DNA of 37,861 bases from Spirochaetia bacterium (lineage in GTDB: Bacteria > Spirochaetota > Spirochaetia > DAHUYW01): contig JASHNV010000035.1 of NCBI GenBank assembly GCA_030041455.1, forward strand, positions 1-37,861. The letters are read 5' to 3'. Position numbers and translations under genes: made by a program. This document shows positions 31,770 through 36,674 of this stretch, piece by piece (position 1 is the first letter of the stretch; each line of letters starts with the position of its first letter). Below the pieces are notes generated by a model. It was given only the letters and a program-made list of their open reading frames with translations. It did not search any database and had not been told where the DNA came from.

Positions 31770-32546
31770 CTACTGCGGGGCGACGGGTTGGAACAGGAGA
31801 TCGAGGAGCTGGTTGAGATATTGAAGGAGGAGCGCCTTCTTCTTCGCGTCGCTGAGGGTGTACTCGGGCTGCTGCGCCGTCGGATTGGCCGCCGGTCCAG
31901 GCTGCGCTGCCGGCGTCCCCTGCGACGCCGCGGGAGCGGCCGCAGGCGCGACAGGCGGTGCCGCGGGAGCGGCCGGTTGGGCGGCAAGCTGCCTGAGCGC
32001 CGCGACGAGGTCGGCGGAGGTGAGGACCTGGGCCTCGGGCTCGATGAAGCTCGTGTAGGAGAGCTTCGCATCGACCACCTGGGTGAAGGAAACGGTGCGA
32101 TTGTCGTGGAGCAGCCGCGGATCGACGACTCCGGTGAGGCTCAAGGTCTCCTGCTTCCCGTTCACGGCCGTGGTCCGGGAGCCCTCGATATCCAAGAGAC
32201 CGTTCGGCTCGACGCTCTCCACGCGGGTCGCGAGCGTCGTGCTCAGCGCAAGCTCCTCGCCGCCCTTCAGATTCGTCGTGCTCGACGCGGTTGCCGGCGG
32301 CAGGAACGAAAGAACGTCGGCTCCGCCGCCGCCGAGCTCGAGGGTCATCGAGTGGTCCGAGACGCTCGAGGCCGTATAGCTCAGCTTGGTGGAGGTGTCG
32401 ATCGTCACGAAAATCGTGTCGTTGACCGCGACCGCGCTGTTCCCGGCGATGTAGCCGTTGAAGCTCGGCTGCCACAGGCTCTGCGCCTGCAGACCCGCAA
32501 CGGCGAAACAGAACAGCCCAGCTGCCGCCAACCGATCTCTCACCAT
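31770..32546 (-). CDS. FlgH-like (L-ring) exported protein
   Basis: A 258-residue exported protein whose core matches the flagellar L-ring protein FlgH: SLWQPSFNGYIAGN after the signal peptide, VNDTIFVTIDTSTKLSY at 41-57, and LATRVESVEPNGLLDIEGSR then LSLTGVVDPRLLHDNRTVSF at about 105-155. The signal peptide ends LQA before QSL with no lipobox cysteine, whereas FlgH is normally a lipoprotein. Residues 187-228 are an Ala/Pro linker, and 231-253 form an extra amphipathic helix. No flgA, flgI or other flagellar gene is adjacent. The ATG at 32546 follows GGGAG. It may be an L-ring remnant or a repurposed FlgH fold. Confidence 0.7.
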   Translation of the reverse strand: MVRDRLAAAGLFCFAVAGLQAQSLWQPSFNGYIAGNSAVAVNDTIFVTIDTSTKLSYTASSVSDHSMTLELGGGGADVLSFLPPATASSTTNLKGGEELALSTTLATRVESVEPNGLLDIEGSRTTAVNGKQETLSLTGVVDPRLLHDNRTVSFTQVVDAKLSYTSFIEPEAQVLTSADLVAALRQLAAQPAAPAAPPVAPAAAPAASQGTPAAQPGPAANPTAQQPEYTLSDAKKKALLLQYLNQLLDLLFQPVAPQ

Positions 32547-32566
32547 GTCTCCCGCCCTGTCCTGCC

Positions 32567-32585
32567 AAAAAGGCGAAGCTCGCCT
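32567..32585 (-). terminator. Intrinsic terminator after the bS22-like gene
   Basis: On the transcript strand AGGCGA, a 3-nt loop GCT, TCGCCT, then a run of T (A at 32567-32571 on the plus strand, the last pairing in the stem). The stem overlaps the TAG stop of the small gene. This is the clearest Rho-independent terminator of the window, and would let only part of transcription reach the FlgH-like gene. Confidence 0.75.
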
Positions 32586-32673
32586 ACTTCCGCTTGTGGC
32601 GATTCCTTCTCAGCTTCTTCTTTCGCTTGTGAGTGGCAATTTTATGCCGCTTTCGCTTTCTTCCGCAGGGCAC
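32584..32673 (-). CDS. bS22-like mini ribosomal protein (AURKAIP1/COX24 domain)
   Basis: A 29-residue, extremely basic protein, shorter than most gene finders report. The reading is MPCGRKRKRH, then KIATHKRKKKLRR and a NRHKRK end, the pattern of the AURKAIP1/COX24 family (mitochondrial mS38). Its bacterial form, called bS22, is a tiny small-subunit protein first seen in mycobacterial ribosome structures and present in other phyla. The GTG start at 32673 is 7 nt after AAAGGAG. It has its own consensus-like promoter (32791-32819) and an intrinsic terminator overlapping its stop, so it is a separate transcription unit. Confidence comes from the sequence pattern plus perfect expression signals. 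Confidence 0.85.
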   Translation of the reverse strand: MPCGRKRKRHKIATHKRKKKLRRNRHKRK

Positions 32674-32790
32674 TGCGCTGCTCCTTTCTTATGATGCCAA
32701 AGGCAAATTCACGTATGTTTCGTCGCGTATTCTCAGGCTGATTTCCGGACGGATCGCCCGGCAGAAGGGCCACTCCGACAATCGATCCGT

Positions 32791-32819
32791 ATTATGCCCG
32801 CCGGACGGCGGGCAGTCAA
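32791..32819 (-). promoter_or_regulatory. Promoter of the bS22-like gene
   Basis: Minus-strand TTGACT (32814-32819), exactly 17 nt, then CATAAT (32791-32796). The spacer is filled by the perfect inverted repeat GCCCGCC (32796-32802) / GGCGGGC (32807-32813) with a 4-nt centre. The leader to the GTG is about 110 nt. Confidence 0.75.
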
Positions 32820-33033
32820 GAGGAGGTCGGGAAGGCCTAGAGCTCAAGCGCGAGGGCACGTGACGTCCTCTGCGCGGCCGCCACGTGCGGTCGAGACGCC
32901 GCTCGGCTGCCTCTCCCCACCCCATCCACGGTCCGGAGCGGTCGGGTATCGGGCTCGACGAGCGAGCCGGGGCGAACGGCTCACGCTCCTCCCGCGTGAA
33001 AAGGCGCGCGACCGGCGCGATATCGAAGATAGC

Positions 33034-33054
33034 GGGGAACACCAAGCGTTCCCC
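33034..33054 (-). terminator. Hairpin downstream of the DHFR-like gene
   Basis: GGGGAAC (33034-33040) and GTTCCCC (33048-33054), 7 bp perfect with a 7-nt loop, about 27 nt after the DHFR-like stop codon. No T-run follows. Except for this, 32820-33080 shows no supported feature. Confidence 0.4.
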
Positions 33055-33080
33055 CATCGCAACCGTCGTCCGACGCGCTT

Positions 33081-33647
33081 TCAGGAGGTTTTCGGCTTGT
33101 AGCAGAGTCCGATCACGCCCGACTTGAACGTCTTGGCGCTGACGAGCGTGAGAGGATGCCGGGCGTTCGGATCTAGGAAGACGGATCTGCCCGCGCCGAG
33201 CAGGATCGGGCGGACTCGGATGAAGAACTCGTCGATGAGGCCGTCGCGAAGCAGGGCCGAGAGCAACGTACCGCTGCCGACGACGACCACGTCTTCGCCC
33301 GGCTCGCTTTTGAGCTTGCCGACGGCTTTGCCGGGCTCCTCCCGGATCAACGTCGCGGGCTTCCACGTCGCATCGGCGAGGGTGCGCGAAAAGACAATTT
33401 TCGGTATGCCGTTTAATCGCTGAATCATGTAGGGGTCCACGCCCGACGATTTCGGATCGACGGTCGGCCAGAATTGCCGGAACTCCTCGTACGTCACCCG
33501 CCCGCACAGCATCGCGCCGACTCTCCGGAGGATGTCGGCCGACCACGCCCACTCCTCGTCGTCGAAGGAGAACCAATCGATTTCATTCTTGGGACTCGTG
33601 AAGTACCCATCGAGCGAGATGATCGTGTCCGCGATGAGCTTTCGCAT
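33081..33647 (-). CDS. Dihydrofolate reductase-fold (RibD C-terminal) protein
   Basis: A 188-residue RibD-C/DHFR-like reductase (YyaP type). The opening MRKLIADTIISLDGYFTSP, the central LCGRVTYEEFRQFWP, IVFSRTLAD, and DVVVVGSGTLLSALLRDGLIDEFFI with RPILLGAG fit the family. Most such proteins are uncharacterised NADPH-dependent reductases and not true folate enzymes. The start is ATG 33647 after GGAGGG; the frame extends upstream but without family resemblance. It stands alone between two non-coding stretches and its codon choice is less GC-extreme than that of neighbours, so lateral transfer is possible. Confidence 0.88.
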   Translation of the reverse strand: MRKLIADTIISLDGYFTSPKNEIDWFSFDDEEWAWSADILRRVGAMLCGRVTYEEFRQFWPTVDPKSSGVDPYMIQRLNGIPKIVFSRTLADATWKPATLIREEPGKAVGKLKSEPGEDVVVVGSGTLLSALLRDGLIDEFFIRVRPILLGAGRSVFLDPNARHPLTLVSAKTFKSGVIGLCYKPKTS

Positions 33648-34277
33648 AACCACCCTCCGCGTCTCGAGCTCCCAGGCCGGCATGCGGACCCAAGAACTCC
33701 GCCAGGCACGAGCCTTTCCGCTGCGGCAGGGCCTCGCGACTGCAGGCAGGCTCGCATGCGCGAGCGCCGAGCCTCCCGGCCGCAACGACGTCCGCCGCCC
33801 CTTCATCCGAATTGACGTCGGGATCATGCGGCGGAATCGGAGCCGACACCTCGGCAGCCGGGAACCCGATAGCCCCCGGTAGCGTGCCGTGTGACGCGTC
33901 GTTCGTCAAGCCAAACGCCATGGTAGGCGTGGAGCGTGGTGGGGGAAACCAACCGAGCCGCCCTTCACAAGCTTCTCTCGGTCGACAACGTCCGGGAGTT
34001 GCCCCGGGTGTCCGTCGTGTCCGGAGACGACGAGGGAGCCGCGGCTCTTTTCCGGTCATTCCTGCAGCTTGCGTGTCCTGCCATCCACCGCGTCGGACGG
34101 ACCGAGGATCGAGCGTCCGTGAAATCGGCCCGAACGCGGGTCGGCCTCATGGCACGAAGCGCCGGCCCGGTCTCATGCGGACGGACGAGCGCCGCCTCGC
34201 TTCCGGGAACCGATCCGCCCGTCGCGACGAGCTCGACGCCGGGAAGAATCTCCGTTTCGCCTCGCGCGGCGATTTCT
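33648..34277. other. 630-bp stretch with no recognised gene
   Basis: Between the DHFR-like gene and the promoter of the next gene. Open frames on both strands are Arg/Pro/Ser-rich, lack ribosome sites and match no family I know. One 20-bp near-palindrome occurs at 34013-34032 (CGTCGTGTCC / GGAGACGACG, one mismatch). Possibly decayed genes or a mobile remnant, but no transposase or inverted ends were seen. Confidence 0.4.
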
Positions 34278-34336: not shown

Positions 34337-35281
34337 ATGGAAAGCGGCGCCGACGAGATCACGGTTCGGAACACGGACCCCGAGATAAACGCGGTTCTCA
34401 CGACCGCCTCCGACGCCGAGGCCGACTACAGCGCGCATTTCAATCAGAGCGAGGAGTTCTTCCTGCTCCTTTCCCGGACGTTCACGGTGCCGCCGATTCC
34501 GATTCATCACGACGTGCGGGTCGAAATGCCGAGCAGCCGCTACCGGGAGATCCTGCGCCACGTCGTCACCCAGCTTCTCTCGATCGCTCCCGACCTCTTC
34601 AAGGGGATGACCTACTTCTTCGAGCCCGGCGACGTGCTGCGGCCGGCTTTTTTCCAGCTCTTCAAGGTCGACGACCTGCGCTACCTCTACCTCCTGCGCG
34701 TCGACCTGACCTTCCGCGCCACCGAGGCGGAGCTCCTCATGCGCGGCTCGAACGACCTCACCGCGGAGTACCGGACCGACCGTCTCTTTGCCGAGGCGAT
34801 CCTCATCCCGATCGAGAGCGTGAAGGAGTCCGGCGGCGCGGTCTCCGCTCTCATCGTCAGCCAGTCGATCTCCGACACCTGGATCGGCGAGACCGGCAAC
34901 GGCTACTTCGTTCAGGGCATTTGGATGGATCGCGAGCTCACGAAGTTCTTCACCCGCCTGTTCGTGCCCCAAGGGGTGCGCTTCTATCCCTACTATCCCT
35001 TCATCTGCAAGTACCGTACCGTCTGCCACCTCGTTGCCCATCCGTCCCTCGAGGGCCGCAGGCGGCACGCGCCGATCCTCCACAAGGCCTACCGGTTTCT
35101 CCTGCCGGAGATGAGGCGGATCGAGGCCGCGCTGCGCTCGGCGGAGTTCTCCGAGGAGCTCGACGTCTTCAAGGCGCTCAAGGCGCGCGTTCCCGACTAT
35201 TGGCGCGATCTCTTCTCGAGCCTCACCGTGAAGGCGTACCTCAACGCGCACGAGCGAAAGGAGTTCCTCGTTGAGGCATGA
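34337..35281 (+). CDS. Conserved hypothetical protein upstream of murD
   Basis: A 314-residue soluble protein, not recognised. It has no signal peptide or clear membrane helix. Aromatic-rich stretches such as MTYFFEPGDVL and YPYYPFICKYRTVCHL alternate with charged helices. The C-terminal third is basic and helical. The ATG at 34337 lies right behind a promoter and lacks a Shine-Dalgarno sequence; the next in-frame ATG is ~60 residues in. Its end overlaps the murD start by 11 nt, so it is translationally coupled to a peptidoglycan enzyme. A cell-envelope or growth role is conceivable only from context. Confidence 0.8.
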   Translation: MESGADEITVRNTDPEINAVLTTASDAEADYSAHFNQSEEFFLLLSRTFTVPPIPIHHDVRVEMPSSRYREILRHVVTQLLSIAPDLFKGMTYFFEPGDVLRPAFFQLFKVDDLRYLYLLRVDLTFRATEAELLMRGSNDLTAEYRTDRLFAEAILIPIESVKESGGAVSALIVSQSISDTWIGETGNGYFVQGIWMDRELTKFFTRLFVPQGVRFYPYYPFICKYRTVCHLVAHPSLEGRRRHAPILHKAYRFLLPEMRRIEAALRSAEFSEELDVFKALKARVPDYWRDLFSSLTVKAYLNAHERKEFLVEA

Positions 35282-36674
35282 CTCAGGCGCGCTCGACCTT
35301 TCGTCGCCCGAAGGCATGAGGGTCCTCGTCATGGGTCTCGGCCTCCACGGCGGAGGCGTCGCCTCGGCGCTCTACTTCGCGCGCCGAGGCGCGGAGGTGA
35401 CGGTGACCGACCTCCGCGCCGAGCGCGAGCTCGCGCCGTCGCTTCAGGCGCTCTCGGGCTTCCGCGTGCGCTACGTGCTCGGCCGTCATGACGAGCGCGA
35501 TTTCAGCTCCGCGGACCTCGTCATCAAGAACCCCGCGGTTCCCCTCTCGTCGCCCTACCTGAAGGCGGCGCGCGCCGTCGAGACCGACGTCTCGGTGTTC
35601 CTCAGGCTCGCCGGGAACCCCGTGGTCGCGGTCACGGGAAGCAAGGGGAAGTCGACGACGGCTTCCGCCCTGCACAGGGTCCTGCTCGCGCTCGATCCCC
35701 GGACGAAGCTCGGAGGGAACATCACCGTCTCGCCGCTCAGCTTCATCGACGAAGCGAGGCGCGCCCCCCGATCTCCGATCGTCCTCGAGCTTTCCTCCTG
35801 GCAGCTCGCCGATCTCAAGGGGAAGGGCGTTCTCAGACCGCGCGTGGCGCTCCTCACCAACCTCCTTCCCGACCATCAGAACCGCTACGCGGGCATGGAG
35901 GAATACGCCGACGACAAGCGCCTGATCTTCGCCGACCAGGGCCCGGGAGACTTCACGCTGTGCAACCGCGACGACGGGTGGGGGCGGCGCTTCGCGCGCG
36001 AGACGCGCGGCGCGGTCCGCTGGTTCTCGACCGTCCCTCTCCCGTCCGGCGCCCTCGGCGCCTGGCTTGAGGGGAGCTCGGGACTCGCGCGACTCGCCTC
36101 CGACGCGCCGGTCGAGATCGTCGGCGCGGAGCTCAAGCTCCCGGGCCCGCACAACCGAGTCAATCTCCTCGCGGCGGGACTTGCCGCCCTGCTCCTCGGG
36201 GCCAAGCCCGCCGTCATCCGAGAGCGCCTGGGCGGGTTCGAGGGCATTCCGCACCGGCTTCAGTTCCTCGGGAGCAAGGCGGGCGTCGCGTACTACAACG
36301 ATTCGGCGGCGACCATCCCGGAGGCGACCGCCGCGGCGGTGAGGAGCTTCGACCGCCCGGTGCTCCTCATCATGGGCGGCACCGACAAGAGCCTCGACTT
36401 CGCCGTGCTGCGCTCGGTCCTCGACGTTCCGAAGGAGATCGTCCTCGTCGCGGGCTCCGCCACGGCGAAGGCGATCGAGGTCATCGAGGGGGCCGGACGC
36501 GCGCACCAGGGTCCGTTCGCGGACCTGAGCGAGGCGGTCGCGTGCGCGGCGCGGCTTGCCGAGCCGGGCGACGTCGTGCTCTTCTCGCCGGGAGCGGCCT
36601 CCTTCGAGCTCTTCGCGAACGAGTTCGACCGCGGCCGGCGATTCATGAGCCTCGTCGAGGAGCTTCCGGGATAG
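35271..36674 (+). CDS. murD: UDP-N-acetylmuramoylalanine-D-glutamate ligase
   Basis: Adds D-glutamate to UDP-MurNAc-L-Ala in cytoplasmic peptidoglycan synthesis, using ATP. The 467-residue protein shows the N-terminal Rossmann loop VMGLGLHGGGVASALYFARRG, the ATP loop VTGSKGKSTTA, LTNLLPDHQNRY, GPHNRVNLLAAGLAALL, YNDSAATIPEA and IMGGTDKSLDF, all typical of MurD rather than MurC, E or F. TTG at 35271 is preceded by AAAGGAG with a 7-nt spacer; an ATG at 35316 is the alternative and would shorten the N-terminus by 15 residues without losing the Rossmann loop. Confidence 0.95.
   Translation: MRHDSGALDLSSPEGMRVLVMGLGLHGGGVASALYFARRGAEVTVTDLRAERELAPSLQALSGFRVRYVLGRHDERDFSSADLVIKNPAVPLSSPYLKAARAVETDVSVFLRLAGNPVVAVTGSKGKSTTASALHRVLLALDPRTKLGGNITVSPLSFIDEARRAPRSPIVLELSSWQLADLKGKGVLRPRVALLTNLLPDHQNRYAGMEEYADDKRLIFADQGPGDFTLCNRDDGWGRRFARETRGAVRWFSTVPLPSGALGAWLEGSSGLARLASDAPVEIVGAELKLPGPHNRVNLLAAGLAALLLGAKPAVIRERLGGFEGIPHRLQFLGSKAGVAYYNDSAATIPEATAAAVRSFDRPVLLIMGGTDKSLDFAVLRSVLDVPKEIVLVAGSATAKAIEVIEGAGRAHQGPFADLSEAVACAARLAEPGDVVLFSPGAASFELFANEFDRGRRFMSLVEELPG

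Follow-up and report, generated by a model that had tools for sequence, protein, structure and literature searches.

The window, i.e., the whole stretch of 37,861 nucleotides analyzed here, almost certainly carries a gene for bS22, a small and very basic ribosomal protein, as judged from homology and conservation of the translated sequence. On the minus strand, which the sequence-only reading had not specified, a frame of 29 codons runs from GTG (32673–32671) to the stop codon TAG (32586–32584) and reads MPCGRKRKRHKIATHKRKKKLRRNRHKRK. The protein family, its GUG start and its missing annotation were already described in Borrelia in 2023 (PMC10618245), and the window gene adds a member. What the present analysis adds is that the GTG start, together with a −10 box particular to the gene (CATAAT, vs. 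TATACT for bL34), is conserved across the class; no earlier report of class-wide conservation of the bS22 GTG start and promoter was found among the open-licence papers searched. The features of the locus are compiled in Table 1.

Table 1. Features of the bS22 locus and its surroundings in the window.
Feature	Position	Strand	Basis
bS22 gene, GTG start, 29 aa, stop TAG	32584–32673	−	ORF reading, homology and conservation
Shine-Dalgarno AAAGGAG, 7 nt from GTG	32681–32687	−	sequence; conserved in relatives
Inferred 5' leader, about 110 nt	32674–32784	−	no unusual fold, no Rfam match
Sigma-70-type promoter TTGACT-N17-CATAAT	32791–32819	−	motif scan and phylogenetic footprint
Probable intrinsic terminator, stem (A)GGCGA-GCT-TCGCC(T) and T run, overlapping the stop codon	32567–32585	−	fold and reading; modest
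flgH (flagellar L-ring protein), next gene downstream of bS22	31770–32546	−	gene order shared with 7 related loci from 4 families
RibD_C/dihydrofolate-reductase-like gene, between bS22 and the divergent 314-aa gene	33081–33827	−	about 400 nt upstream of bS22
Divergent 314-aa gene, no Pfam or NCBIfam family, adjoining murD	34337–35281	+	on the upstream side of bS22 in 13 related loci from 9 spirochaete families
murD, conserved bS22 neighbourhood	35271–36674	+	29 loci, 13 families

Homology of the Peptide to bS22

When the window peptide was searched against the PDB with phmmer (E up to 10), three matches were obtained, all full length and ungapped: chain 5 of 7jil (E 1.5e-8), which according to the literature stems from Flavobacterium johnsoniae; chain 10 of 9i5v (E 4.9e-8), named AURKAIP1/COX24 domain-containing protein; and chain V of 8fmw (E 7.1e-8), the bS22 of Borrelia burgdorferi. 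With a profile, E values of 2.3e-14 to 2.3e-13 were reached against the three bS22 chains, although the profile itself contained the sequences of two of them. The peptide is thus homologous over its full length to chains identified as bS22 in structures of ribosomes.

The sequence-only reading had called the gene bS22/mS38-like. The first half of this name was upheld by the three solved chains and by conservation, while the second half found no sequence match: mS38 chains were absent from the PDB matches of both peptide and profile at E 10, and PF08213 (COX24_C/AURKAIP1), the family proposed for a profile search, matched nothing in the whole genome at E up to 10, although it did match in three control genomes. 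COX24_C was rejected as the family of the peptide, and the identity rests on bS22. Against Pfam and NCBIfam as a whole, the peptide had no match at E up to 1, in agreement with the expectation that usual annotation misses the gene. Two standard family libraries therefore overlook a ribosomal protein present in nearly the whole class, a gap that the bS22 alignment supplied here would mend.

Conservation and Distribution

The conservation in relatives on which the sequence-only reading had staked its claim was found: bS22 was matched in 58 of 60 relatives and in 346 of the 393 genomes of the phylum (303/328 among good genomes), as a rule with one copy per genome. The window gene fits this pattern of a single short, very basic protein per genome that is conserved in the lineage. 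Fourteen of the 29 peptide positions were invariant across phyla.

A frame held open by chance in a GC-rich genome is a practically negligible explanation. While 91 mechanical ORFs of at least 25 aa were present in the right 10 kb of the window, the window peptide scored 149 against the bS22 consensus of relatives (ungapped, BLOSUM62) and the next best six-frame 29-mer of the window 33, which excludes chance for the peptide; the conservation in the phylum likewise refutes it. It is also highly improbable that the main role of the peptide lies outside the ribosome, as a basic nucleic-acid-binding or antimicrobial peptide. The peptide is highly basic, and in disk assays C. acnes bS22 was inhibitory to bacterial growth (PMC10085706), but full-length ungapped homology to proteins seen in ribosome structures and near-universal single-copy conservation speak against such a role, and the conserved core extends right up to the start codon, leaving no room for a signal peptide.

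Of the genomes without a match that were searched again with a profile, G080 yielded a divergent bS22 whose start is apparently TTG (PSVKKKRKTKMNKHKRKKKARRNRHKKK; locus L270) and G068 a weak bS22 match, and the others remained without bS22. Weak profile matches in G001 and G340 were inspected and discarded as chance. For G001, the one genome of the same genus among those compared, neither bS22 nor flgH nor the DNA of the region was found. Its contig C121 starts inside the neighbouring gene, at residue 187 of 314, so that bS22 would fall beyond the contig end; its absence most likely reflects an assembly gap and not a loss.

The distribution beyond spirochaetes was assessed with a degenerate DNA pattern back-translated from PCGRKRKRHKIATHKRK, the first 17 residues after the start. 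Among the matches listed, this core was exact in records of Spirochaetota, Bacteroidota, Rhodothermales, Latescibacterota, Gemmatimonadota, Edwardsbacteria, TA06 and Cloacimonadota, the last represented by Syntrophosphaera. The protein had been counted among spirochaetal mini ribosomal proteins; it is near-universal in the class but, going by this core, not specifically spirochaetal.

Comparison with Known bS22 Proteins and Proposed Role

Solved structures show bS22 as a bent helix that occupies the small-subunit pocket of 16S h2, h27, h44 and h45 and touches 23S H68, thereby making an inter-subunit contact; B. burgdorferi bS22 binds this small-subunit pocket (PMC10618245). Extrapolating from the Borrelia and Flavobacterium literature, the window protein would sit in the same pocket, where it would brace the decoding-centre neck and form a bridge to the large subunit.

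The Borrelia gene (BB0822) shares with the window gene the GUG start and the lack of annotation; it is without transposon insertions, its transcript is abundant, and bS22 was predicted to turn up elsewhere (PMC10618245). Its product (8fmw chain V) aligns over 28 residues without gaps, with the same MPCGRKRK start, THKRKKK core and NRHK end, but has LK at residues 9–10, where the window has RH, and S in place of A13. In the Borrelia-like family (f19), miaA lies upstream, whereas the window has the RibD_C/murD side. The F. johnsoniae protein and the 9i5v chain agree with the window peptide in length and core, ungapped, and carry PSG or PNG instead of PCG. According to structure papers, the same pocket of the ribosome also holds actinobacterial bS22 (M. 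smegmatis, C. acnes) and mitochondrial mS38. Actinobacterial bS22 showed no significant sequence match to the window peptide: a mycobacterial sequence gave E = 50, and none was among the profile matches. For mS38, without significant sequence match to the window bS22, the equivalence is structural and taken from the literature.

The GTG Start Codon

Start codons and upstream regions were read in 87 bS22 loci from 35 families, 77 of the loci being non-redundant. GTG was the start in 64/77 and ATG in 13/77, counts that are not independent because the loci are interrelated; as the safer figure, 26 families showed GTG only. In the same relatives, the control gene for bL36 started with ATG in 30/30 cases, and that for bL34 with ATG in 18, GTG in 3 and TTG in 3 of 24 readable cases. 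Among named genomes, bS22 started with GTG (17), ATG (5) or TTG (2) in Spirochaetota, and with ATG in 15/15 Rhodothermales. Unlike the window gene, the sampled Bacteroidota genes started with ATG (28/29, the single GTG call having an unreadable frame) and were without the spirochaetal promoter. The share of the start G was 0.83, vs. largest shares of 0.42 to 0.64 for the wobble bases of adjoining invariant codons, which were mostly more variable. However, the wobble base of Gly4 came close to the start G (0.81), and constraint may thus extend to the early codons.

The pairing of GTG with AAAGGAG at good spacing, already noted from the sequence, was confirmed: the 7 nt between them is also the commonest spacing among relatives (37/77). 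The simplest reading is that GTG is kept for tuning of the expression level. A more specific one, which we regard as doubtful, is that selection keeps GTG because bS22, located beside the decoding centre, would influence start-codon choice and regulate its own synthesis, the strong Shine-Dalgarno sequence, conserved promoter and non-AUG start together forming a feedback circuit. It is drawn by analogy with IF3, which regulates its own synthesis through an AUU start. As regulatory features, the class-wide GTG start and the gene-specific −10 box both lend themselves to testing in a spirochaete that can be cultured.

Promoter and Leader

The gene had been proposed to possess its own promoter, and phylogenetic footprinting bore this out. 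TTGAC-N17-(−10) was present within 160 nt upstream in 54/77 non-redundant loci, vs. a mean of 0.11 in dinucleotide shuffles, and, as the safer figure given the kinship of the loci, upstream of bS22 in 26/35 families. In the window, TTGACT-N17-CATAAT was the only sigma-70-like site on both strands of 32400–33100 (0.1 in shuffles). TTGAC-N18-CATAAT occurred at four sites in the 3.39 Mb genome, one being the bS22 promoter; on inspection, none of the other three preceded ribosomal genes or tRNAs. The −10 box of bS22 was CATAAT in 32 and GATAAT in 9 cases and that of bL34 TATACT in 11/13; thus, the two genes keep different, gene-specific −10 boxes. Of the 30 bL34 upstream regions (loci L088–L117), 11 carried TTGAC-N17-TATACT, whose −10 box differs from the bS22 one.

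The promoter spacer (32796–32813) forms an inverted repeat with perfect 7-bp arms, GCCCGCC-GTCC-GGCGGGC (fold z −4.3), which is single in the window and may be an operator or a remnant. Visual inspection of the spacers that were read in relatives revealed no such repeat.

The inferred leader is longer than in most relatives, where the −10 box usually lies 30–75 nt from the start. A riboswitch-like leader was considered and dropped, as no Rfam family was found in the window and the leader fold was not unusual (z +0.40, 32667–32784). Transcription would begin near 32784 and end at about 32567, giving a short monocistronic transcript of some 215 nt.

Read-through from the RibD_C-type gene upstream is a rather improbable main source of bS22 expression in place of the gene's own promoter. 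The RibD_C gene lies on the same strand, and the spacer repeat forms a strong hairpin within the promoter of the window genome; against read-through, the RibD_C gene was absent from all other bS22 loci read, being peculiar to the window's genome, while the promoter is conserved in most.

Probable Terminator

The stem and T run reported to overlap the stop codon are present (GGCGA-GCT-TCGCC followed by TTTTT), the first base of the stem being the last base of the stop. As a terminator, the structure is plausible but modest: it folds at −9.8 kcal/mol with a z of only −1.6, and a terminator scan of the region did not list it. Terminator-like sites occurred at 34/87 bS22 loci. The terminator is therefore the weakest of the bS22 signals and not universal.

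Gene Neighbourhood

The window keeps both flanks of the conserved setting, with murD and the divergent gene of unknown family on one side and flgH downstream. In other families, bS22 is accompanied by miaA upstream (14 families), dxs downstream (11) or rpsF (bS6) downstream (family f9), these three names coming from reading of the sequences and not from a profile search. Neighbours thus vary between families (miaA, dxs, flgH, rpsF, murD) whereas the promoter remains attached to the gene, in keeping with a self-contained unit.
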